Shown here in pieces: positions 9,450 to 19,544 of a DNA stretch of 64,000 nucleotides; position 1 is the first letter of the stretch; each line of letters opens with the position of its first letter. The stretch is from the NCBI RefSeq assembly GCF_963666525.1, contig NZ_OY762905.1, forward strand, positions 62,001-126,000, given 5' to 3'. Source of the DNA: an uncultured Cohaesibacter sp. Lineage in GTDB: Bacteria > Pseudomonadota > Alphaproteobacteria > Rhizobiales > Cohaesibacteraceae. The translations under genes and the position numbers were made by a program. The notes beneath the pieces were generated by a model. That model was not told the DNA's origin. It searched no databases and was given only the letters and a program-made list of their open reading frames with translations.

Positions 9450-9553
9450 TTCCATTCAGGGCGCTGAAACCTATAACAAATTGCATCTACAAACCGGCCC
9501 GGAATTGTTGTTAGGTTGATCATCAGGATTTTCCCAACCGAGCGGATTTGCAG

Positions 9554-11107
9554 ATGATTGATACTCTCCGACTAGACCAGATTCTAGATGCGTTACCCAA
9601 CATGTACCGCGGCCCCGGAGGGGTTGCTGGCGTCGTCAAGGACGGAAAGATCATCGCCTCTCGCGCCTGGGGCTACTCAGACCTTGCCTCCCATCGCAAA
9701 ATGACAAGCGGCACCCGTCTGCCGATCTGTTCCATCTCCAAGCAGTTCACCTGTGCTGTCCTGCTGCACAGCTTCTCGGACTTTGCACCCCTCAACGCCC
9801 GTCTGCCGGACTTGCTGCCCAATTTCGAAGGCCAGTTGCCGACCATTGAACAGCTCTGCCACAACCAGTCCGGCCTGCGCGACTATTGGGCACTGACAAT
9901 CCTTGAAGGGGCCAAGGCGGAACAGAGCTTCGCCCGAAACGACGCCTATGCGATGTTCGAGAGGATGAAAAGCTGCCATTTCGAACCCGGCACCAGCTAT
10001 TCCTATTGCAACGCCAACTTTCGCATCGTCGGCGAGCTGATCGAACGGGAAACCGGCCGCTCGCTTCAGGGGCTTCTCGCGGAAACCGTCTGGGGACCGG
10101 CGAACATGAAGACCGCTGCGCTGCTCTCTGACAGCCGCGTGACCGCCGATGGCGTCATCGGCTACGAAGGCAACGAACAGGTCGGCTTCATGCCGGCAGA
10201 CAATGGCATCTACTGGTTCGGGGATGCCGGCATTTCAGCATCCCTTGAAGACATGCTTGCCTATGAATGCTGGATTGATCAGACCCGAGACGACCCGGAT
10301 AGCCTCTACAATCGCATTTCAACGCCACCGACCTTCAAGGACGGGACACCTGCCGGTTATGGCTACGGGCTGGCTCACATGGAGCTGGCCGGTCGCAAGG
10401 TGACCGGTCACGCAGGAGCCCTGCGCGGCTTCCGCGCCTTCCGCATGCATTGCGCATCCGAGCGCATGTCGGTGGTCGTCATCCTCAACCATGAAGGCAG
10501 TGCCTATGGCGCAGCCGAGGCCCTGTTCAATGCCGCCCTCGGCTATGAAGCACCAAAGCCGATGCCTGTGCCAGAAGGTTGGGATGGTCAATGGCTCTGC
10601 CCCGAGGCCAACCTGCTGACCGCCATCGAAAGTGGCAAGACAGATGCCCATCTGCATTACTCGACCGGCGGCGATATTGTCTTTGCAGCAGAAGATGGCA
10701 CCCTGAAAACGGCAAGCATCAAGCTGAGCAAAGCCGCGGGCACGATGACCATGACGCGGAAGGGTGAAAATCTGGTCTCGTCACTGGTGCCGCTGCCAAA
10801 ATCGCCCACAACGCCGGACGCAGAGTTCGCTGGTCGCTATTATTCGGACGAACTCGATGCCACCTTCACCGTGGTTGCAGAAGATGGCGGCCTCTATGCC
10901 TACTGTCAGGGTGTTCTGGGCACCGGCATCATGGAACGTGTCCATCCGGTCGGCCCCGACACATGGGTGTTTGTGACCCGCCGCTCCATGGACGCGCCTG
11001 CACCGGGAGATTGGACCATCACGGCAACCCGTGGCAACGACGGCACCATCAAGGGGATCACCCTTGGTTGCTGGCTGGCGCGCAAACTCGACTACCGCCG
11101 CCTGTAG
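9554..11107 (+). CDS. dap: D-aminopeptidase (serine hydrolase, beta-lactamase fold)
   Basis: 517 residues, matching the three-domain DAP of Ochrobactrum anthropi in length and along the whole chain. The catalytic S-x-x-K is S60-I-S-K63 (ICSISKQFT). Other recognisable blocks are NQSGLRDYWALT, FEPGTSYSYCNANFRI (catalytic Tyr region), GHAGALRG (His of the third motif) and the C-terminal GCWLARKLDYRR. The characterised enzyme removes N-terminal D-amino acids from peptides and D-amino-acid amides. ATG 9554 is used; the upstream in-frame TTG adds two residues. The gene converges on the peptide ABC transporter operon, with a terminator between. The context suggests use of D-amino-acid-containing peptides such as those from peptidoglycan. 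Confidence 0.92.
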   Translation: MIDTLRLDQILDALPNMYRGPGGVAGVVKDGKIIASRAWGYSDLASHRKMTSGTRLPICSISKQFTCAVLLHSFSDFAPLNARLPDLLPNFEGQLPTIEQLCHNQSGLRDYWALTILEGAKAEQSFARNDAYAMFERMKSCHFEPGTSYSYCNANFRIVGELIERETGRSLQGLLAETVWGPANMKTAALLSDSRVTADGVIGYEGNEQVGFMPADNGIYWFGDAGISASLEDMLAYECWIDQTRDDPDSLYNRISTPPTFKDGTPAGYGYGLAHMELAGRKVTGHAGALRGFRAFRMHCASERMSVVVILNHEGSAYGAAEALFNAALGYEAPKPMPVPEGWDGQWLCPEANLLTAIESGKTDAHLHYSTGGDIVFAAEDGTLKTASIKLSKAAGTMTMTRKGENLVSSLVPLPKSPTTPDAEFAGRYYSDELDATFTVVAEDGGLYAYCQGVLGTGIMERVHPVGPDTWVFVTRRSMDAPAPGDWTITATRGNDGTIKGITLGCWLARKLDYRRL

Positions 11108-11132
11108 AAAGCATCGGGCCTCAACAACACAA

Positions 11133-11168
11133 AACCCGCAGCGATCATCCGATCCCTGCGGGTTTTTC
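11133..11168. terminator. Rho-independent terminator after dap
   Basis: ACCCGCAG and CTGCGGGT form an 8-bp stem with a 14-nt loop followed by TTTTT on the plus strand. An A-run on the other side allows use by the convergent transporter operon as well. Confidence 0.85.
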
Positions 11169-11250
11169 ATGTCTGGTGCGGTTTTGCGATTTGCAAAATC
11201 CACAGGCAAAGACACCGCCCGTCGTGAAGGGCGATGCCTTGCATCAAAGC

Positions 11251-12768
11251 CTATTCAGCCGTCTTGACGGTGTCTTCCAGGAAGAAGCGACCGAGAGGGT
11301 TCTGGTCGAAATTCTCGACACCTTTCTGGGTAACATTGATGAACGGGCTGTAGAACAGATCGATCCAGTGAGCATCAGCCTTGGCCAGTTTCTGGATTTC
11401 GAAATACATGGCCTTGCGTTTGGCCGAATCCAGCTCCAGACGAGCGTCGGCAACCAGTTGCTTGACCGTCTCGTTGTTGTAACGGGTCATGTAGTTCATG
11501 TTGACGTCATGGCCCACAACGAAGGTGGTCTTCTGATCGGGGTCGAGAATGTCGTTGGTCCAGTACATCATCGACAGGTCATAGTCGCCTGCAACCAGCA
11601 TGTCCCAGGTCTGGCTCGGGTCCATTTTCACCAGATTGATGGTGATGCCGATTGCGGCCAGCTGCTGCTGGATCAGGACGGCAACCTGTTCGTCAACTTC
11701 GTTGCCGGCATTGACCAGATAGTCAAGCGAAATGCCGTCGACACCGGCCTCTGCGAGCTCGGCCTTGGCTTTTTCGAGATCGAAGTCACGAGCACCGTTT
11801 TCATCGCTGTGATAGAGCGCACCAGCCGGAATGAAGCTGTTGGCAACCTTGCCCTGACCGAAGGTCACGGCATCAACGATCGACTGCTTGTCGATGGCGT
11901 AGTCGATGGCAGCACGCACATGAACATTGTTGAGTGGCTCATGCTCGTGGTTCATCAACAGATGATCCTCACGGGTGGAGGGCTCGATGTGAACGGTAAG
12001 CTTGTCGTCGGCCTTTAGTTCTTCCACGCGGGAGAACGGAACATAGATGGCAGCATCAAGCTCGCCGGACTGAACGCTCAGCATGCGGGTGTTGTCATCC
12101 GGCATCGAGATCCATTCGACGCCATCAAGGCTGACCTTGTCGGCCTGCCAGAACTCGGGGTTCTTGGCAAGGATGACGCGGTCGCCGCGCAGCCATTCCT
12201 TCACGACGAAAGCGCCGGAAGCGACAGGGTTCTGGGAATAGTCTTCCTGACCCTTTGCTTCAAAACCGGCCTTGGAAATGACGGAGGTGGCAGGCATTGC
12301 GAGGGTGGAAAGGAACGGAGCGGACTGTTCGGACAGGGTAATAACCAACGTCTTGGCATCCGGGGTCTGCATGTCGGAGATGATCTTGTAGCTGTCGGAC
12401 CACAGGGAAAGCTCATCATCACGAACGCGCTCGAGAGAGAATTTGGCGTCTTCAGACGTGATGGCAGACCCATCGGAGAATTTCGCATCACGAAGATGGA
12501 AGGTATAGGTCAGGCCGTTCGAGGAGATGTCCCAGCTTTCGGCAAGACCAGGCACGAGTTCGGCACCGGTTTTGTCGACGCGAACCAGCACGTCATACAC
12601 GTTCATGAAAACCCAGAAGTCGATGTTCTGGGCGGTATTGATCGGGTCGAAGGTGCTGGAGTCCTCACGGCGACCGATGGAGAGCACGCCTGCAGCATCG
12701 GCCACAGTCATCGCGCCCATGACAAGGGTCATTGCAAGAAGTCCCACACGGGAAAATTTTCTGAACAT
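11251..12768 (-). CDS. Peptide/amide ABC transporter substrate-binding protein (family 5)
   Basis: 505 residues with a typical Sec signal peptide (MFRKFSRVGLLAMTL..., likely cleaved after VADA at about residue 25). Family 5 (DppA/OppA) features are the DSSTFDPINT start, LAESWDISSNGLTYTFHLR, and FSDGSAITSEDAKFS. It is the periplasmic binding protein for the permeases and ATPase encoded just upstream on the same strand, 48 nt after the ATPase gene. As the last gene of the operon it is close to the terminator at 11133-11168. The ligand may be a dipeptide, an amino-acid amide or a related small molecule. The link to an amidase and a LuxR solo favours an amide or peptide signal/nutrient. Confidence 0.88.
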   Translation of the reverse strand: MFRKFSRVGLLAMTLVMGAMTVADAAGVLSIGRREDSSTFDPINTAQNIDFWVFMNVYDVLVRVDKTGAELVPGLAESWDISSNGLTYTFHLRDAKFSDGSAITSEDAKFSLERVRDDELSLWSDSYKIISDMQTPDAKTLVITLSEQSAPFLSTLAMPATSVISKAGFEAKGQEDYSQNPVASGAFVVKEWLRGDRVILAKNPEFWQADKVSLDGVEWISMPDDNTRMLSVQSGELDAAIYVPFSRVEELKADDKLTVHIEPSTREDHLLMNHEHEPLNNVHVRAAIDYAIDKQSIVDAVTFGQGKVANSFIPAGALYHSDENGARDFDLEKAKAELAEAGVDGISLDYLVNAGNEVDEQVAVLIQQQLAAIGITINLVKMDPSQTWDMLVAGDYDLSMMYWTNDILDPDQKTTFVVGHDVNMNYMTRYNNETVKQLVADARLELDSAKRKAMYFEIQKLAKADAHWIDLFYSPFINVTQKGVENFDQNPLGRFFLEDTVKTAE

Positions 12769-12816
12769 TGTTTTGGTGTTCCTTCTGTTATGTGATTGCG
12801 TTTGTTGTATGTTTTC

Positions 12817-14493
12817 TCAATTGCCCTGAATTGCTCGGGCGGCCATTCTGGTGCCTATCGGCTTGTCGGGATCGATATTGGGGATCGCGGCCAGCAGATT
12901 GGCGGTGTAGTCCTGTTCGGGATTGTCGAAGACGTCTTCGGTTCTGCCAGCCTCGACAATGCGGCCGTGATGCATGACGATCACGCTTTCACAAAGCTCG
13001 CGGACGATGGCGAGGTCGTGGGCAATGAAGATGATGGTCAGCGCCATTTTCTCCCGCAGTTCCTTGAACAACGAGATGATCTGGGCCTGAATGGTCACAT
13101 CGAGCGCGGCAACGCACTCATCGGCGATGATCACCTTGGGATTGACGGCCAGGGCACGGGCTATGCCGACACGCTGGCACTGGCCACCGGACAGGCTCTT
13201 TGGCTTGCGTGTGCGGAAGGATACATCAAGGCCCACAAGCTCCAGCAATTCGTCAATCCGGAGGTCAATGGCGTTGCGGGCGATCTCTCCCTGCGTTTCC
13301 AGAACCTCGCGCAACACCGCTTCCACCGTCATCCTTGGATTGAGTGCATTGAACGGATCCTGAAACACCATCGCCACTTCCCGGCGCAGTTTCTTGAGGG
13401 CCTGATCGCGTTTCAAGGTCAGTACGGCACCATCATAGGCGATGTCACCTGAGGTGATCGGGGTGAGGCCGATCATGGCCCGTGCCAGCGTGCTCTTGCC
13501 TGAGCCGCTTTCCCCCACGATACCAACCGTATCGCCGGGAAAGATCTGGCAGCTGACACCCGCAAGCGCCCGGAAGGCACCTTTGGAACGAAACCAGCTT
13601 TTGCCCGCGTTGAACTCGACAACCAGATCATCAACCTCGAAGATCGGCTTCATGTGTGGCTCTTCCACCACGATATCATCATCAGGCACATGGCTGGCCA
13701 GATGATCATCAAAGGAGGGATGTGAAGCGATCAGCGTCTTGGTATAGCTGTGCTGTGGGGCAGACAGCAGCTTGCGCTTCTCTTCAATTTCGACGATCCG
13801 GCCTTCCCGCATTACCGCAATACGGTCGCAGGTTTGCGCCACGACGCCCAGATCATGGGTGATGAGAATGATGGAAAGCCCGCGTTTCTTGCGCAACTCC
13901 AGCAAAAGCTCCAGAATCTGCGCCTGAACAGTCACATCGAGAGCTGTGGTCGGTTCGTCGGCGATGAGAATTTCCGGCTCGCAGGAAAGGGCAATGGCAA
14001 TCATCGCGCGCTGGCGCATGCCGCCGGAAAATTCATGCGCGAAACTGCGGAAGGCCCGCGCCGGATCTGGAAAGCCGACTTGTGTCAACAACTCAACGGC
14101 CTGCACCCTGGCATCCTGTTTGGAATAGGAGCCGTGACGGAACAAGCCTTCGCAGATCTGGTCACCAATACGCATGACCGGGTCCAGATGGCTGGTCGGG
14201 TTCTGAAAAATCATCCCGATGCGCCGACCGCGCACATCCATCATCGCCTTTTCCTCAAGACCGAGAATGGACCGGCCCTCGAGCACAACGTCGCCACTGG
14301 TTACCGACAGTTTCGTTGAGGGTAGCAAGCCAATGATCGCCCGACACAACAGGCTCTTGCCGGACCCGCTTTCGCCCACAAGGCCGAGAATTTCCGACTG
14401 GCCAAGATCGAAAGTGGCATCTTCCAGCAAAGAACGGGTTTCCACCTTGTCCTGATAGCTGACCGAGAGGCCTTTTACGGAGAGAATGGTCAT
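12817..14493 (-). CDS. Peptide ABC transporter ATPase, fused DppD-DppF type
   Basis: 558 residues holding two complete ABC ATPase modules in one chain, as in GsiA or YejF. Module one has Walker A GESGSGKS at 40-47, signature SGGMRQ at about 156-161 and Walker [12 protein letters not shown]. Module two has Walker A at 327-334 and signature LSGGQ at 434-438, with Walker [12 protein letters not shown], where Cys replaces the usual Pro. It energises import through the DppB/DppC pair. The start overlaps the stop of the dppC-like gene by 4 nt (ATGA), which indicates coupled translation. Confidence 0.9.
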
Positions 14494-15341
14494 ACTTCAG
14501 CCTCCCACATGTCACCAAGGGCATCGCCCAGCAGCGAGAAGCCCAAAGCGAGGCAGACAATGGCAAACCCGGGGAAGAAGGTGATCCACCAAGCCTGCGT
14601 GATGAAGCCCTGTCCTTCGGCAACCATGATGCCCCATTCGGCAGCAGGCGGCTGAACCCCAAGCCCCAGATAGCTGATGGCAGCACCATTCAACAGCACC
14701 AGAATGACATCGGACATAGCAAAGACGATGGAGCCGGTGAGAGCGTTCGGCAGCAGGTGACGAAACATGATGCGTAGCCGCGAGTAGCCCAGACTCTGGG
14801 CTGCAACGGCGAAATCCATCGTTTTCAGAACGAGAATCTGCGCGCGCACCAGTCGGGCATAGCTGACCCAGCCAACCAGCGCCATGGCGATATAGAAACT
14901 CGCCAGACCAGGGCCGAGAATGGTGATGATGGACAGCATCAGTACGAGGAACGGAAAGGCCAGCACGATATCGATGATACGCATCAGGATGGTATCAACA
15001 ATACCGCCCAGGAAACCGGCCACCGTTCCCAGTATCGTGCCAATGATCATCGGGAACAACACGCCCAGAAGGGCGATCTGCAGGTCGATCCGCACACCCC
15101 AGATCACGCGGGAAAGGACGTCCCGGCCGAAATTGTCCGTGCCAAACGGATGCAACAGAGTAGGGGCCTGCAGCCGCGCGTTGGCATCGTGAAGGATCGG
15201 ATCAAACGGAGCCACCAGCGGGGCCAGAATGGCCGCAACGAGGAAGAATGCCAGAATGCAGAACCCGAGCGTCAGGGTCGTGTTGCTGCTCATCAGGGCG
15301 CGCCATTTGAGACGAGGGAAAAAGGGTCTTGTTTGCGCCAT
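14490..15341 (-). CDS. Peptide ABC transporter permease, DppC type
   Basis: 283 residues with an N-terminal transmembrane helix (about residues 20-45), the OppC/DppC N-terminal region (HPFGTDNFGRDVLSRV) and five further helices. The EAA cytoplasmic loop that contacts the ATPase is visible as AQSLGYSRLRIMFRHLLPN. It overlaps the dppB-like gene by one base at 15341 and the ATPase gene by 4 nt. This is the smaller of the two inner-membrane permeases of the peptide/amide importer. Confidence 0.88.
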   Translation of the reverse strand: MAQTRPFFPRLKWRALMSSNTTLTLGFCILAFFLVAAILAPLVAPFDPILHDANARLQAPTLLHPFGTDNFGRDVLSRVIWGVRIDLQIALLGVLFPMIIGTILGTVAGFLGGIVDTILMRIIDIVLAFPFLVLMLSIITILGPGLASFYIAMALVGWVSYARLVRAQILVLKTMDFAVAAQSLGYSRLRIMFRHLLPNALTGSIVFAMSDVILVLLNGAAISYLGLGVQPPAAEWGIMVAEGQGFITQAWWITFFPGFAIVCLALGFSLLGDALGDMWEAEV

Positions 15342-16282
15342 CAGAATTTCACTCTCGGATCAAGGGCTACGGTCAGGATGTCGGCAAGAAAGTTGATCAA
15401 CAGGGTTGCAATGGCAAACACCATGGCAACGCCCTGAACCACCATGTAGTCACGAGAGAAGATGCCGCGAACCAGCAATTGCCCCATGCCGGGAAGAGCA
15501 AACACACTCTCCACCACCACCGTGCCACCGATCAGCCAGCCGATGTTGACGGCGAGCAGGTTTATGGTGGGCACCAGCGCATTGGGCACCACATGCCGCC
15601 AGAACACCGTGTTTTCCGATACGCCGCGCGCACGGGCAGCTGTTGCAATGTCGGAGTTGAGACCTGCGATCATGGCCGCCCGCAAGCTGCGAGTGATGAC
15701 CGAAGACAGCGAAAGCGCAATGGTCAGACAGGGCAGAACAAGGTGAAGGGCCTTGTCCTCGAAGGTCTTGCCGTAGCCGGACACCGGCAACCAGTCGAGA
15801 CTGACCGCGAACAGGATGATCAGCATGACGCCAAGCCAGAACTGCGGAAAGCCGAGCCCGGCCGTTACGGCGATGCGGGCAAAATGATCCGGCCACTGGC
15901 CCTGCTTGCGCGCAGAGAGCGCGGCCAAAGGAACAGCGATCACCAGAGACAGCAGGACCGCGCAGAAAACCAGCATCAGCGTTGGCTCAATGCGCGTTGC
16001 AATCAGTTTCAATACATCGATCTTGTAAAGGGTCGAACGGCCCATCTCGCCATGTACGAGGTTTTTCAGAAAATAGACATACTGGGTGATCATCGGCTCA
16101 TCGAGCCCATATTGTGCACGGATCTTGGCTAGGGCGGTCGGGGTCGAACGCGCACCCAGCAACACCCGTGCGGGATCCCCGGGGATCAGGCGCACGAGGA
16201 TGAAGGTGACAACCGAGATGCCAAACATCACAGGCAGCAACTGGAACGGACGGAACAGGACAAAGCGATAACGACCCAGCAT
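15341..16282 (-). CDS. Peptide ABC transporter permease, DppB type
   Basis: 313 residues with six predicted membrane helices and the DppB/OppB hallmarks VTFILVRLIPGDPARVLLG near the N-terminus, GLDEP, and the EAA loop ARARGVSENTVFWRHVVPNA. It begins 3 nt after the stop of the amidase gene, so the pair is almost certainly on one transcript. It forms the import channel with the DppC-type subunit. Confidence 0.9.
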   Translation of the reverse strand: MLGRYRFVLFRPFQLLPVMFGISVVTFILVRLIPGDPARVLLGARSTPTALAKIRAQYGLDEPMITQYVYFLKNLVHGEMGRSTLYKIDVLKLIATRIEPTLMLVFCAVLLSLVIAVPLAALSARKQGQWPDHFARIAVTAGLGFPQFWLGVMLIILFAVSLDWLPVSGYGKTFEDKALHLVLPCLTIALSLSSVITRSLRAAMIAGLNSDIATAARARGVSENTVFWRHVVPNALVPTINLLAVNIGWLIGGTVVVESVFALPGMGQLLVRGIFSRDYMVVQGVAMVFAIATLLINFLADILTVALDPRVKF

Positions 16283-16285
16283 GCT

Positions 16286-17191
16286 TTACTCGCTATCATA
16301 CTTCGACAAAAAGGCTTCAACAACGGCCATACAATCCTCTTTTTCCTCTACATGGGGCATGTGGCTTGAGTTGGGGAAGACATGCGCAACCACATCGGGG
16401 ATATTGTCCCAAAATGGCTGCAAGCACTCGGTGGTTGCCTCGTCATGGGCGCCGCGAAACGCCAGCGTTGGCGCTTTGACCTTGTGCAGACGGTCAATGA
16501 TCGACCAGTCCTTCATGGTGCCGATGACGTGAAATTCGGTTGGACCATTCATGGTGTGATAGACCGTGGGATCTTCATCCATGGCGTCGAAGGTGCGCTG
16601 CACCTCCACCGGGCGTGGCTTGGTACGGCAGACATGACGGTCATAGAAGACCTCGGTAGCTGCTTTATAGTCGGGATGGTCGATTGTGCCAGCCTTTTCG
16701 TGCAGATCCAGTGTGTCCTGCACATCCTGCGGCAATTGGGCCCGCAGCTCGGCTGCCCCCTTCAACCAGATTTGCATGTTGCAAGGCGAGTTGGCCAGTA
16801 CCAGCGCCTTGAGACCGGCCGGCTGCCTGACCGCATGTTCAGACCCGAGCATGCCGCCCCAGCTTTGCCCAAGATAGGCATAGCGGTCCTGAATACCCAA
16901 ATGGCTGAGCAAGGCGTCCAGTTCGCCTAAAAAAAAGTCAACTGTCCAAAAATCAGCCCCTTTTTCGCGCAGGTGCGTCGACTTGCCGTTGCCGATCTGG
17001 TCATAGTGGATGACAGGGCGACCTGTTTTGGCCAGGTCCATAAAACTGTCGATATAGTCATGAGTGCAACCCGGACCACCGTGAGCCACCACCAGGGGGA
17101 GCTTGGGCGAGTCAAGGGATCCGCAGATCCGATACCAAGTTTTATATGTCTGATAAGGCGAATAGCCTTCCTGAATCTCAAAATCTGCCAT
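16286..17191 (-). CDS. pip: Proline iminopeptidase / L-amino-acid amidase (alpha/beta hydrolase)
   Basis: 301 residues, family S33. The oxyanion motif HGGPG is at 37-41, the nucleophile is S110 in GQSWGG, and the likely acid and base are D250 (AHDEATTE) and H277 (SSHMPH). The chain resembles L-amino-acid amidases of Pseudomonas as strongly as peptidases. Such enzymes release N-terminal proline from short peptides and hydrolyse amides such as prolinamide. It is cytoplasmic, with no signal peptide. The gene is 87 nt downstream of a LuxR solo and 3 nt upstream of a peptide ABC transporter. This matches the arrangement of pip genes with plant-responsive LuxR solos. A candidate lux-type half-dyad lies in the gap at 17249-17268. 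Whether the enzyme makes, destroys or merely consumes the signal is unknown. Confidence 0.88.
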   Translation of the reverse strand: MADFEIQEGYSPYQTYKTWYRICGSLDSPKLPLVVAHGGPGCTHDYIDSFMDLAKTGRPVIHYDQIGNGKSTHLREKGADFWTVDFFLGELDALLSHLGIQDRYAYLGQSWGGMLGSEHAVRQPAGLKALVLANSPCNMQIWLKGAAELRAQLPQDVQDTLDLHEKAGTIDHPDYKAATEVFYDRHVCRTKPRPVEVQRTFDAMDEDPTVYHTMNGPTEFHVIGTMKDWSIIDRLHKVKAPTLAFRGAHDEATTECLQPFWDNIPDVVAHVFPNSSHMPHVEEKEDCMAVVEAFLSKYDSE

Positions 17192-17248
17192 CTAAACCTC
17201 ATTGTCTTGCTGAGATCCAATCCTAGGCACATTCGACCATTCACCAAT

Positions 17249-17268
17249 AGCTAATGAATCTTATAGGT
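17249..17268 (-). promoter_or_regulatory. Candidate lux-type box upstream of the amidase operon
   Basis: On the minus strand CT-N12-AG occurs with outer bases A..T (ACCTA at one end, TAGCT at the other). This fits the loose CT-N12-AG pattern of LuxR-type operators, but only about half of the dyad positions match. It lies about 60-75 nt before the amidase start, a workable place for activation. This is a weak prediction. Confidence 0.25.
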
Positions 17269-17278
17269 TCTGCAAATT

Positions 17279-18043
17279 TCAGTTGGTGGTTTCGAGCAAT
17301 TGATAGTGCGCAGCGAGCACCAGCGCGTGAAAACGGTTGCGCGCGCCGAGCTTTTTGGTTGCCGAGGTGAGATGCAGGGTTACCGTAGCAACAGAGCGTC
17401 CGAGCTCATGCGCGATTTCCTTGGCAATCAACCCCTTGGCACACAGCTGCAGACACTGCCTCTCGCGGGCCGTGAGCCTGACATGGGGCGTGCGAAAAGC
17501 TTGTGGAGCAAAGCCCTTGACGACCGCTTCATGAAAGATGTGAGCCAGATAGCCAACCGAAGAAACCGCGTTGTTCAGGTCATCGATATCGATTCCGGAC
17601 GTGCTGATTGCCGTGAAGGTCGCCAAAGCACCTCCAGCACCGCGAATGGGCACCGTTATGCCGCTTTCCATGCCGGTATCACACAGATAATCGACAACCG
17701 GCCGATGGCGCGGGTCGAGAATCCGGCTCATGATGGCACTTTGCGGACCTCGATAGGTCCATATGAATGGGCATGACGTTTCGCGCGACGCATCCATGAC
17801 CGGATCATGGGCATAATAGTGCTGGCCACACCACAGGTCCGTCATATCACTAGGTGTGTTCTGCATGGCATAGACGGTGGGAACGATAAACTCGCCCTCA
17901 TGGGTGAGGGGGACGGGGGAAAAATCGTAGCTCGATGCATCAAACCCCAGAGGACGCAGAACGGTTTGCGCAATTTCCATCGCATCGTCGAGTGCAATTC
18001 CGGGAGAAAGTGCACTTACGAAATCATGTTGCATGTTACTCAC
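17279..18043 (-). CDS. LuxR-family solo regulator, plant-compound-responsive (OryR/PipR) type
   Basis: 254 residues. The N-terminal autoinducer-binding domain is at about 15-160 and the C-terminal GerE-type helix-turn-helix at about 185-245 (LTARERQCLQLCAKGLIAKE, TVTLHLTSATKKLG). Aligning by spacing to TraR, the conserved D70, P71 and W85 are D80, P81 and W95, and the SGIT glycine is G128. TraR W57 and Y61 are replaced by M67 and W71 (DMTDLW). That Met/Trp pair is diagnostic for LuxR solos that sense plant-derived compounds rather than acyl-homoserine lactones. No luxI synthase is in the window. GTG at 18043 is chosen because AAGGAGG lies 5 nt before it; the downstream ATG would be 14 nt away. 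It probably controls the amidase-transporter operon downstream. The ligand is inferred, not shown. Confidence 0.88.
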   Translation of the reverse strand: MSNMQHDFVSALSPGIALDDAMEIAQTVLRPLGFDASSYDFSPVPLTHEGEFIVPTVYAMQNTPSDMTDLWCGQHYYAHDPVMDASRETSCPFIWTYRGPQSAIMSRILDPRHRPVVDYLCDTGMESGITVPIRGAGGALATFTAISTSGIDIDDLNNAVSSVGYLAHIFHEAVVKGFAPQAFRTPHVRLTARERQCLQLCAKGLIAKEIAHELGRSVATVTLHLTSATKKLGARNRFHALVLAAHYQLLETTN

Positions 18044-18048
18044 TATTG

Positions 18049-18055
18049 CCTCCTT
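18049..18055 (-). promoter_or_regulatory. Ribosome-binding site deciding the luxR solo start
   Basis: A perfect AAGGAGG sits 5 nt upstream of GTG 18043. The next in-frame ATG is 9 nt further down, too far for ideal initiation, so the GTG is preferred. Confidence 0.75.
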
Positions 18056-18210
18056 TCTTGCGTACCAGTCTTTATCACATGCAAGTGCCACGCCAATCTC
18101 GGCGCCTGTTTTAATATGCCGCTTGGCGTCAGTGATATCGACCTGACGAAAGCCCCCCCCAAATGCCCCGCGCTAGGGAGGCCGGGCTCTGGTTATCCTG
18201 CCCGACTGTC

Positions 18211-18291
18211 CTAACAGATCTGGGATATCACGACGACCGCGATGGAGACCGTCAGGGCGAAGGAAAGGTATTGGAGTTTCCTATCGGTCAT
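18211..18291 (-). CDS. Predicted 26-residue single-pass membrane peptide
   Basis: A short open frame reads MTDRKLQY followed by about 17 hydrophobic residues (LSFALTVSIAVVVISQI) and a final Cys: a charged head and one transmembrane helix. GGAGCA is placed about 3-8 nt before the ATG, a good ribosome-binding site. The start lies within the last codons of the upstream small DNA-binding-like gene (11-nt overlap), which suggests coupling. No family is recognised. It could be a small membrane modulator or a toxin-like peptide; it could also be chance, since any 26-codon frame is weak evidence. Confidence 0.4.
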   Translation of the reverse strand: MTDRKLQYLSFALTVSIAVVVISQIC

Positions 18292-18493
18292 AGCTGCTCC
18301 ATTTCCTAAGGCCTTGGGCAAGGGCGCTCATAGCGAGCTCGTCAACCTGCTTGAGGGTGATGGCCTCGCCAGACTTCACCGCTGCCATGATCTTCTGGGC
18401 ATGGATCCGACTCCAGCCGATTGTCTCGACCAGTTGCGATGCCTTGGTGATTTTCATCACATCAAGCCAGCGTTGAAAATTTTGAGCGTCCAT
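18281..18493 (-). CDS. Small protein with helix-turn-helix-like region
   Basis: 70 residues. The start is supported by AAGGA 7 nt upstream. The sequence is helical with a possible helix-turn-helix (ASQLVETIGWSRIHAQKIMAA) and a second helix (TLKQVDELAMSALAQGL). It resembles small Cro-like regulators in character, but no family could be assigned. It overlaps the 26-residue membrane peptide gene at its 3' end. It lies in a patch between the LuxR solo and tRNA-Ser that has the look of acquired DNA. Confidence 0.5.
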   Translation of the reverse strand: MDAQNFQRWLDVMKITKASQLVETIGWSRIHAQKIMAAVKSGEAITLKQVDELAMSALAQGLRKWSSYDR

Positions 18494-18827
18494 TTCTTTT
18501 CCTTTCTTCCTGTCGGGGCGGGGCGGGACCTGCCTGCCAAAAACATCGATCTAATGAATTTTATTATTCTCTTTACGCAGTATATAATTTGAAAATATTC
18601 ATTTCCATCACATTCAATCGTGAACAACAAAAAGCCGCGCACCAACTCGTCCGCGGTGTCTGCTTGCTCTACCAAATCGCCCAGAGAAATCTGCGTCATC
18701 AAGACGACCGCCAAGCAAAAATACAAATAATGAAACAAAATAGTGTTGATACCCTCCAGCCCGACATTGCACTTACCAACCAGCGCGCCCCAACATACAA
18801 TCGATGTTTGATTGATTGGAAAAACTC
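18494..18827. other. AT-rich intergenic stretch
   Basis: This 334-nt stretch is visibly more AT-rich than its surroundings. Open frames on both strands here lack ribosome-binding sites and ATG starts and were not accepted. It presumably carries the divergent promoters of the small protein and the acyltransferase. Confidence 0.5.
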
Positions 18828-19397
18828 ATGGCTAACTTGATACATAATGAGCTAACCATCGCGGATGGGGCAACGTTTGAATTTCCTGAAGACGTGAAGG
18901 GGCAAGGGAGGATCACTGGCCGCATTGGTCGCAATGCGGAAGTCATTTTTCATGGCATTGATGTATTCTTGACAAGACTGCATCTCGAGATCAAGGACAA
19001 TTGCCGATTGGTCGTAGGCAAAAGCGCCATATTCAACAAACAGACCAATTTCGATATGAACGAACCAGGCGCCTCAATCATCATTGGAGAAGGTTGTATG
19101 TTCTCTCGCAGTCGGTTTTGGACGTCCGATTTTCACGGGATTTATGACGCGACAACAGGAAATCGCCTGAACCACACGAGAGACATCATGATCGGAGATA
19201 GATGCTGGGTTGGCAACGACGTCCTAGTCCTGAAGGGAACGGAGATGGGCAACGACACCGTGATTGCTGCTGGATCTGTTGTCTCAGGAAAGAAATTCGG
19301 CTCTAACCTAGTGATTGGCGGCAATCCTGCAAAGGTTATCAAAGAAGGCATTATATGGCATCACAAGAAGCAGGATATACATCCAGACTTCGAGTGA
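18828..19397 (+). CDS. Hexapeptide-repeat acyltransferase (LbetaH fold)
   Basis: 189 residues with left-handed beta-helix repeats and the active-site-proximal block GDRCWVGNDVLVLKG, then IAAGSVVSG and the typical C-terminal VIGGNPAKVIKEG. Members of this family acetylate sugars in surface polysaccharides, lipopolysaccharide or antibiotics. The catalytic His is probably H in WTSDFHGI. Codon use looks more AT-rich than the flanking core genes, and the gene sits beside tRNA-Ser, consistent with lateral acquisition. ATG 18828 is used; TTG 18816 is in frame upstream. The acceptor is unknown, and no polysaccharide genes adjoin it. Confidence 0.8.
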   Translation: MANLIHNELTIADGATFEFPEDVKGQGRITGRIGRNAEVIFHGIDVFLTRLHLEIKDNCRLVVGKSAIFNKQTNFDMNEPGASIIIGEGCMFSRSRFWTSDFHGIYDATTGNRLNHTRDIMIGDRCWVGNDVLVLKGTEMGNDTVIAAGSVVSGKKFGSNLVIGGNPAKVIKEGIIWHHKKQDIHPDFE

Positions 19398-19544
19398 TCG
19401 ACTAAAAGGCCGAATACAGATCTGAAACCAGCGCGTCACGTTGGGCGGAATGCCTAACTAATATACGCCATATCTCAACCCGATACGCAAATTGGCACAG
19501 CCGCGCTAAAGGCTACAATCAACATATAGTATTTCAGGAAGAAA

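Follow-up and report, generated by a model that had tools for sequence, protein, structure and literature searches.

A putative LuxR circuit of chimeric make-up in Cohaesibacter, with a PAB-type regulator, an AapF-type importer, and an adjoining D-aminopeptidase

Known circuits and the Cohaesibacter locus

The PAB subgroup of LuxR solos is described as plant or terrestrial (PMC10134790). One identified plant compound for the subfamily is HEHEAA; a close relative of its transporter protein is reported not to bind HEHEAA, so other signals must exist (PMC10134790), and the structure 7KZ9 is described as AapF with HEHEAA bound (PMC11168924). The PipR circuit of Pseudomonas sp. GM79, as presented in PMC4981722, does not respond without its importer and needs a dyad at -71.5; mutants in the peptidases show a stronger response, and the promoter of aapA, at the head of the importer operon, depends only weakly on PipR. 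For Kosakonia PsrR, a member of the PAB subfamily, pip is reported as unresponsive to rice root macerate, ethanolamine, and HEHEAA (PMC7301841).

Here, we analyze a 64-kb stretch of DNA (64,000 nucleotides, the window) from an uncultured Cohaesibacter sp., whose contig is one 5.18-Mb chromosome. Six co-directional genes run from luxR through pip, two permease genes, and an ATPase gene to a binding-protein gene, with gaps of 87, 3, -1, -4, and 48 bases along the run, and a D-aminopeptidase gene lies convergent with them:

17279..18043, - strand: luxR solo with M67/W71 (PF03472, 87.7 bits, and PF00196, 54.3 bits, scanned as the longer reading 17279-18091)
17249..17268, - strand: ACCTATAAGATTCATTAGCT, a lux-type box of the form CTA-N10-TAG, centred at about -67 relative to the start of pip
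16286..17191, - strand: pip, proline-iminopeptidase-family hydrolase of the PipA type (TIGR01250, 243 bits, cut-off 168)
15341..16282, - strand: permease B of a peptide-type ABC importer (Pfam BPD_transp_1), 3 bp after pip
14490..15341, - strand: permease C of the importer (Pfam BPD_transp_1 and OppC_N)
12817..14493, - strand: fused double ATPase of the importer (two ABC_tran stretches)
11251..12768, - strand: AapF-type solute-binding protein (by tree and by best solved match, AapF 7kz8/7kz9 at 681 bits, next 192)
9548..11107, + strand: D-aminopeptidase, convergent with the binding-protein gene of the operon (NF009622, 692 bits, cut-off 443)
9469..9488, + strand: degenerate copy of the box (9 of 11 fixed bases kept) upstream of the D-aminopeptidase gene, at about -70 from its start

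The TIGR01250 score bears out the proline-iminopeptidase gene that a preliminary description had placed beside luxR; the linked amidase of that description is dropped, as none was identified among the eight proteins scanned at the locus. Pip matches the structure 7a6g at 438 bits, and its identity is 64–70% to five PipA-type genes vs 33–35% to three AapA-type genes. It contains the motifs GQSWGG, HDEAT, and SSHMPH, which we take to be catalytic. AapA, the usual partner of the importer, is absent from the locus, where the single pip-family gene near luxR is of the PipA type. Permease B is 64–77% identical to its counterparts in Rahnella, Pannonibacter, Rhizobium, and Klebsiella loci. Because the importer follows three bases behind pip, the pip promoter should drive uptake too. 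The importer might also have a promoter of its own. Scans for promoters (one promoter-like site vs 3.1 expected) and terminators (five vs 5.8 expected) do no better than shuffles.

The D-aminopeptidase matches 1ei5 at 485 bits, its SISK, YSY, and GHAGALRG motifs align with the same motifs of 1ei5, and the DAP_B domain is present. The SxxK, Tyr, and His residues are presumably those that act in catalysis in 1ei5-type D-aminopeptidases.

The regulator and its box

LuxR carries both the Autoind_bind and GerE domains (Pfam). AGGAGG lies five bases upstream of the GTG at 18043, which makes 18043 the better start, and no AGGAGG-type sequence precedes the longer in-frame reading from 18091. As previously read from the letters, Met67 and Trp71 occupy the places of TraR W57 and Y61, and D80, P81, W95, and the SGIT glycine are kept. 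Specifically, Met67 and Trp71 stand 13 and 9 residues from the DP motif, the same as in TraR; in phmmer alignments W71 is opposite TraR Y61, with M67 two residues ahead of the aligned block, and M67 and W71 align gap-free with W and Y of RhlR. In a MAFFT alignment of 102 rows, 11 of 12 non-family LuxRs have W/Y in the 57/61 columns (the remaining one has Y/Y), which indicates that the columns are correctly placed.

We compared 90 loci, i.e. the best 80 named of 536 encoding relatives plus ten others, hereafter the listed loci. Among these 90 family rows the 57/61 pair is M/W in 81 and W/W in nine, all of the latter from Pseudomonas or Paucimonas, in agreement with the published W/W of PipR (PMC4981722, PMC7301841). 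The Met/Trp pair had been proposed as the mark of OryR/PsoR/PipR-type solos; for GM79 PipR this does not hold. The equivalents of TraR D70, P71, and W85 are kept in all 90 rows, and that of G113 in all 86 rows read. At TraR position 73, 84 of the 90 listed rows have Q, while M is found in six, namely the five Cohaesibacter and Oceanicella, so the ligand of this LuxR may differ from those of other members. The specificity patch of the pocket (V101, L105, and M110) resembles that of many relatives, and L stands where TraR has A105. Judged by its residues, the pocket is in all likelihood other than an acyl-homoserine-lactone (AHL) pocket. An AlphaFold model (mean pLDDT 93.1) matches QscR, RhlR, SdiA, and TraR along its whole length when this predicted structure is searched with Foldseek, which is an indirect structural check of the 57/61 positions.

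A family tree, built from members chosen by similarity and pip linkage and without the OryR, XccR, NesR, PsoR, and PipR proteins themselves, holds the 90 family rows together at 100/99, apart from 12 others. Membership of this LuxR in the OryR/PAB subfamily is supported by its residues, the tree, the pip linkage, the lux-type box, and the peptide importer. The reported lack of a luxI is true of the 64-kb window, searched with the genome's own LuxI, and not of the genome, which has three Autoind_bind genes in all and, elsewhere, one luxI (G000:C1:4088597), beside a W/Y luxR. The LuxR of the locus is thus unpaired, but the cell probably produces an AHL.

A PipA-type gene lies co-directional and directly downstream of luxR in 82 of the 90 loci (best 80 of 536 plus ten), and CTA-N10-TAG occurs ≤200 bp upstream of pipA in 80 of these 82 listed loci, or 45 of 47 non-redundant ones; two of the 82 are without it upstream of pip. 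This pattern came from reading intergenic sequences, and the loci in which it was counted are those in which it was recognized; shuffling single bases gives an expected mean of 1.4, and any other spacing between 4 and 16 turned up between zero and three times. A palindrome search of the 47 non-redundant upstream regions returned CTATCA-N4-TGATAG at widths 16 and 22 and locked on luxR coding sequence instead at 18 and 20, two of the four widths. A CTG-N-CAG palindrome, over-represented at spacing 5 (16/47 vs 3.7), was set aside for CTA-N10-TAG. The box fits the form CT(N12)AG given for lux boxes in PMC4338825. In the genome, ACCTAT-N9-TAGCT has one exact match, at the box before pip; a search for further targets gave 25 sites with ≤1 mismatch vs 71 for a reversed control pattern, so nothing is claimed beyond that exact site.

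Among the listed loci, 39 of 49 aapA genes also have the box upstream, and three importer operons without luxR (L158, L192, and L195) have no exact box. The degenerate copy before the D-aminopeptidase gene is found in three of five Cohaesibacter loci (the window, G006, and G016; absent in G011 and G005), and in G003, a genome without this luxR, it is broken by a short duplication. Box sites with ≤2 mismatches number nine in the window vs 4.3 expected, and by hand estimate the chance of such a site falling ≤5 bases from the -70 place on the same strand is about 4 in 10,000. No exact box was found upstream of the D-aminopeptidase genes of Shinella, Neorhizobium (approximate start), and Rhodobacter.

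Distribution and origin of the parts

Strong matches to luxR, pip, and the binding protein occur in the same five of 18 Cohaesibacter genomes; for example, the LuxR of Cohaesibacter haloalkalitolerans (G006) is 97% identical to that of the window. In the LuxR tree (90 family rows and 12 others) the five Cohaesibacter group with Oceanicella at 99/94, then with Mesorhizobium (100/94), Aureimonas (99/95), and a Parvibaculaceae bin (95/85). The PipA tree recovers the same group, separated from the rest at SH-aLRT 99, and among the listed loci Cohaesibacter PipA has 66–73% identity to the 18 loci of the LuxR group vs 56–67% to 65 others. The transporter has other affinities. Taking as AapF type a match of at least 350 bits, the binding protein is of this type in all five Cohaesibacter loci, in 0 of 18 other loci of the LuxR group, and in 64 of the remaining 67 listed loci. 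Seventeen of the 18 non-AapF loci have another binding protein (23–27% identity), and Oceanicella has none on its contig. The AapF-type tree (41 rows thinned from 76) places Cohaesibacter with Rhodobacter sp. CZR27 at SH-aLRT 97, then with Neorhizobium sp. SOG26 (82). Holding the non-AapF rows together without Cohaesibacter gives AU-test p-values of 0.0099 for LuxR (55 thinned rows) and of 0.039, just below 0.05, for PipA (66 thinned rows); these groups were set by transporter type, but named after the LuxR tree was seen. The nearest relatives of the luxR-pip pair differ from those of the transporter, so the operon very probably arose when one cassette carrying luxR and pip was joined to another carrying the importer.

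A sixth Cohaesibacter genome, G003, has the D-aminopeptidase gene without the luxR, pip, and binding-protein genes of the block. It is close to the window (rlpA 93%, metG 98%), and between rlpA and the D-aminopeptidase gene (L071) 257 bases replace window positions 11113-19537 (8.4 kb), with homology ending five bases past the D-aminopeptidase stop. As G003 has the site without the block, the block looks to have been gained or lost as a unit.

Other arrangements were seen along the way. A hexapeptide-type acyltransferase gene (18816-19397) lies in a stretch of about 1.4 kb at window positions 18102-19531, in place of which C. haloalkalitolerans has about 105 bases. Martelella alba (L111), a named alphaproteobacterium, has a LuxR, PipA, and binding protein that group with Enterobacterales, and is either a case of transfer or a misnamed record. 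Rhodospirillaceae R-7 (L129) has a PAB-type LuxR, and neither pip nor an AapF-type importer was found within about 10 kb of it. In several Alphaproteobacteria (L075, L192-L196) AapA and AapF-type importer genes occur with no PAB-type luxR close by, which suggests that the importer module reaches wider than its link to LuxR. In L072 and L073 (G076 and G029), a PipA-type gene adjoins another peptide importer, with no PAB-type luxR found nearby, and Hyphomicrobiales UR115 and Zavarzinia aquatilis (L090 and L095) have two tandem AapA-type genes before the importer.

The D-aminopeptidase gene adjoins the block in all five Cohaesibacter loci and is found in six of the 90 listed loci, the sixth being Shinella granuli, where it stands in PipA's place, directly after luxR. 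A D-aminopeptidase gene is present in 24 plasmid records, of which 12 were examined; nine of these 12 show no AapF-type importer beside it, and three do. In Shinella HZN7 the gene is in PipA's place; in Neorhizobium SOG26 it converges on the binding-protein gene, and the locus keeps both AapA and PipA; in Rhodobacter CZR27 it is convergent too, and the 19.5 kb examined showed neither luxR nor pip. D-aminopeptidase genes also adjoin other peptide importers, which speaks against specificity. In the D-aminopeptidase tree, the genes of Shinella and Neorhizobium are on branches separate from those of Cohaesibacter, and unlinked genes fall between the Cohaesibacter and Rhodobacter ones, so recruitment probably occurred more than once. 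A sister relationship of the Cohaesibacter and Rhodobacter CZR27 genes was not recovered, as other sequences intervene.

Two further ideas about this gene were set aside. A strict exchange of AapA for the D-aminopeptidase does not agree with the Rahnella and Kosakonia loci, which show neither, nor with Shinella and Neorhizobium, which keep AapA. Genome-wide co-occurrence was also rejected: the D-aminopeptidase and the AapF-type protein are each found in eight of 385 genomes and both in four, and the Fisher test by genus (p 0.0038) includes the genus of the window, from which the question arose; leaving that genus out brings the value to about 0.07 by hand estimate. In the other three genomes with both, all of one genus, the genes are on different contigs.

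A proposed circuit and its place among known systems

Overall, we favor, with moderate confidence, a PAB-type LuxR circuit of chimeric make-up in which an imported peptide-like compound would induce its own uptake and breakdown. By orthology, the periplasmic AapF-type protein likely captures a small polar peptide-like or amide compound, probably also the class of the ligand, which the importer would take in and which would then bind the LuxR pocket. Activated LuxR would be expected to bind CTA-N10-TAG at about -67 and to raise pip and, by read-through, the importer, so that uptake would come under positive feedback through induction of the importer. Pip, probably together with the D-aminopeptidase, may or may not go on to degrade the compound in the cell, with about equal chances in our estimate, as negative feedback or as nutrition. 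HEHEAA is an ethanolamide of an N-substituted glycine, and a prolyl-type peptidase or a D-aminopeptidase could plausibly cut its bond.

How the parts came together and what they serve can be read in other ways. An ordinary PAB/PipR-type sensor may have been inherited whole, with AapA lost and genes rearranged in Cohaesibacter and no joining of cassettes; the gene families are indeed the same as those of PipR-type loci, and the Rahnella and Kosakonia loci with an AapF-type importer likewise show no AapA-type gene. Yet we consider this unlikely, given that the listed loci among which LuxR and PipA are placed have an AapF-type binding protein in none of 18 cases, and given both AU tests. It is still less probable, and in our view very improbable, that LuxR eavesdrops on AHLs and so brings further genes under the luxI/luxR pair that the genome has. 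The single luxI with a W/Y luxR beside it would allow for this, but M/W in place of W57/Y61, L at the A105 position, and the linkage of luxR to an importer point elsewhere, and a pipA reporter in GM79 is reported as uninduced by six AHLs (PMC4981722).

More weight goes to a catabolic switch, in which LuxR would detect an imported peptide or amide as a nutrient and turn on the genes for taking it up and cleaving it, with no host signal involved. The importer and two exopeptidases are in one place, D-aminopeptidase genes adjoin other peptide importers as well, operons of the AapA-linked importer exist without luxR, and PipR is reported to answer peptone and Ser-His-Ser too (PMC4981722). Against it, the PAB relative PsrR is described as affecting root endosphere colonization (PMC7301841), and we rate the switch as a possibility somewhat short of even. 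It is compatible with the signal circuit that we favor, and both may hold.

Cohaesibacter is a genus mostly reported from marine samples, is described as a core member with cultured Prorocentrum dinoflagellates (PMC11251618), and clones from Posidonia tissue are given as 97 and 99% like a Cohaesibacter (PMC3448135). That this LuxR answers plant compounds or ethanolamine amides, as suggested earlier, is a possibility, tempered by the lack of a pip response with PsrR and by M at position 73, and a plant or algal source of the ligand is a tentative suggestion that we lean slightly against. The most far-reaching version, which we regard as speculative and improbable, is a naturally recombined marine interkingdom circuit, with a PAB LuxR of one branch and an importer of another, in which the sensor would drive the uptake of its own signal and the D-aminopeptidase would have been recruited because the signals, coming from algae or seagrass, are amides that are achiral or of D configuration, such as N-alkylglycine amides resembling HEHEAA. 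D-aminopeptidase recruitment is seen on other lines of descent, in the PipR-type loci of Shinella and Neorhizobium.

The sensor itself had been suggested to be undescribed in this lineage. This is plausible for Cohaesibacter and does not extend further, as the PAB group is recorded in many Alphaproteobacteria, including Citreicella and Rhodobacter (PMC4338825). In the titles and abstract openings of the literature on Cohaesibacter LuxR, on D-aminopeptidase with LuxR, and on marine LuxR solos with proline iminopeptidase, the arrangement of luxR, pip, AapF-type importer, and D-aminopeptidase is not described, the literature on Cohaesibacter LuxR being, by its abstract, a Breoghania genome note, and PMC13133039 defers the treatment of solos to later work. 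The LuxR regulator VarR, from a pathogen of seaweed in the sea, was considered as a described marine member and discarded, the terms pip and OryR being located solely in the reference list of PMC4602140. As such, the kind of sensor is known, and its combination with the importer and D-aminopeptidase appears to be new. A subgroup described as plant or terrestrial now extends into a mostly marine genus. With regulator and importer exchanged in nature, it becomes possible to ask which of the two determines specificity for the signal, and the presence of a D-aminopeptidase beside AapF-type importers in four genera, in two arrangements, is a chemical hint at the substrate.

Four known systems come closest. 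The plasmid importer of Rhodobacter sp. CZR27 (L158) is alike in its AapF-type binding protein (73%), its convergent D-aminopeptidase (57%), and its lack of AapA, and differs in having neither luxR nor pip in the stretch examined. The Mesorhizobium, Aureimonas, Oceanicella, and Parvibaculaceae loci (L077-L094 without L090, plus L035) have, among the listed loci, the closest LuxR (44–54%) and PipA (66–73%) outside the genus; they differ in their transporter, with another binding protein in 17 of 18 and none on the Oceanicella contig. The PAB solos OryR, XccR, PsoR, NesR, and PsrR (subgroup 0 in PMC10134790) are described with the same Met/Trp, adjacent pip, lack of an adjacent luxI, and lux-type box, whereas the Cohaesibacter LuxR has M and not Q at position 73 and belongs to a mostly marine host genus. 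The PipR/AapA-F circuit of GM79, in the account of PMC4981722, shares an altered 57/61 pair, PipA downstream of luxR, an AapF-type importer, and a dyad about 70 bp before pipA. By contrast, GM79 PipR is W/W and the Cohaesibacter LuxR is M/W, on another branch of the tree; the GM79 importer sits in an operon headed by aapA, whereas that of Cohaesibacter, with no aapA, lies co-directional behind pip; and, unlike the GM79 circuit, the Cohaesibacter locus is adjoined by a D-aminopeptidase.
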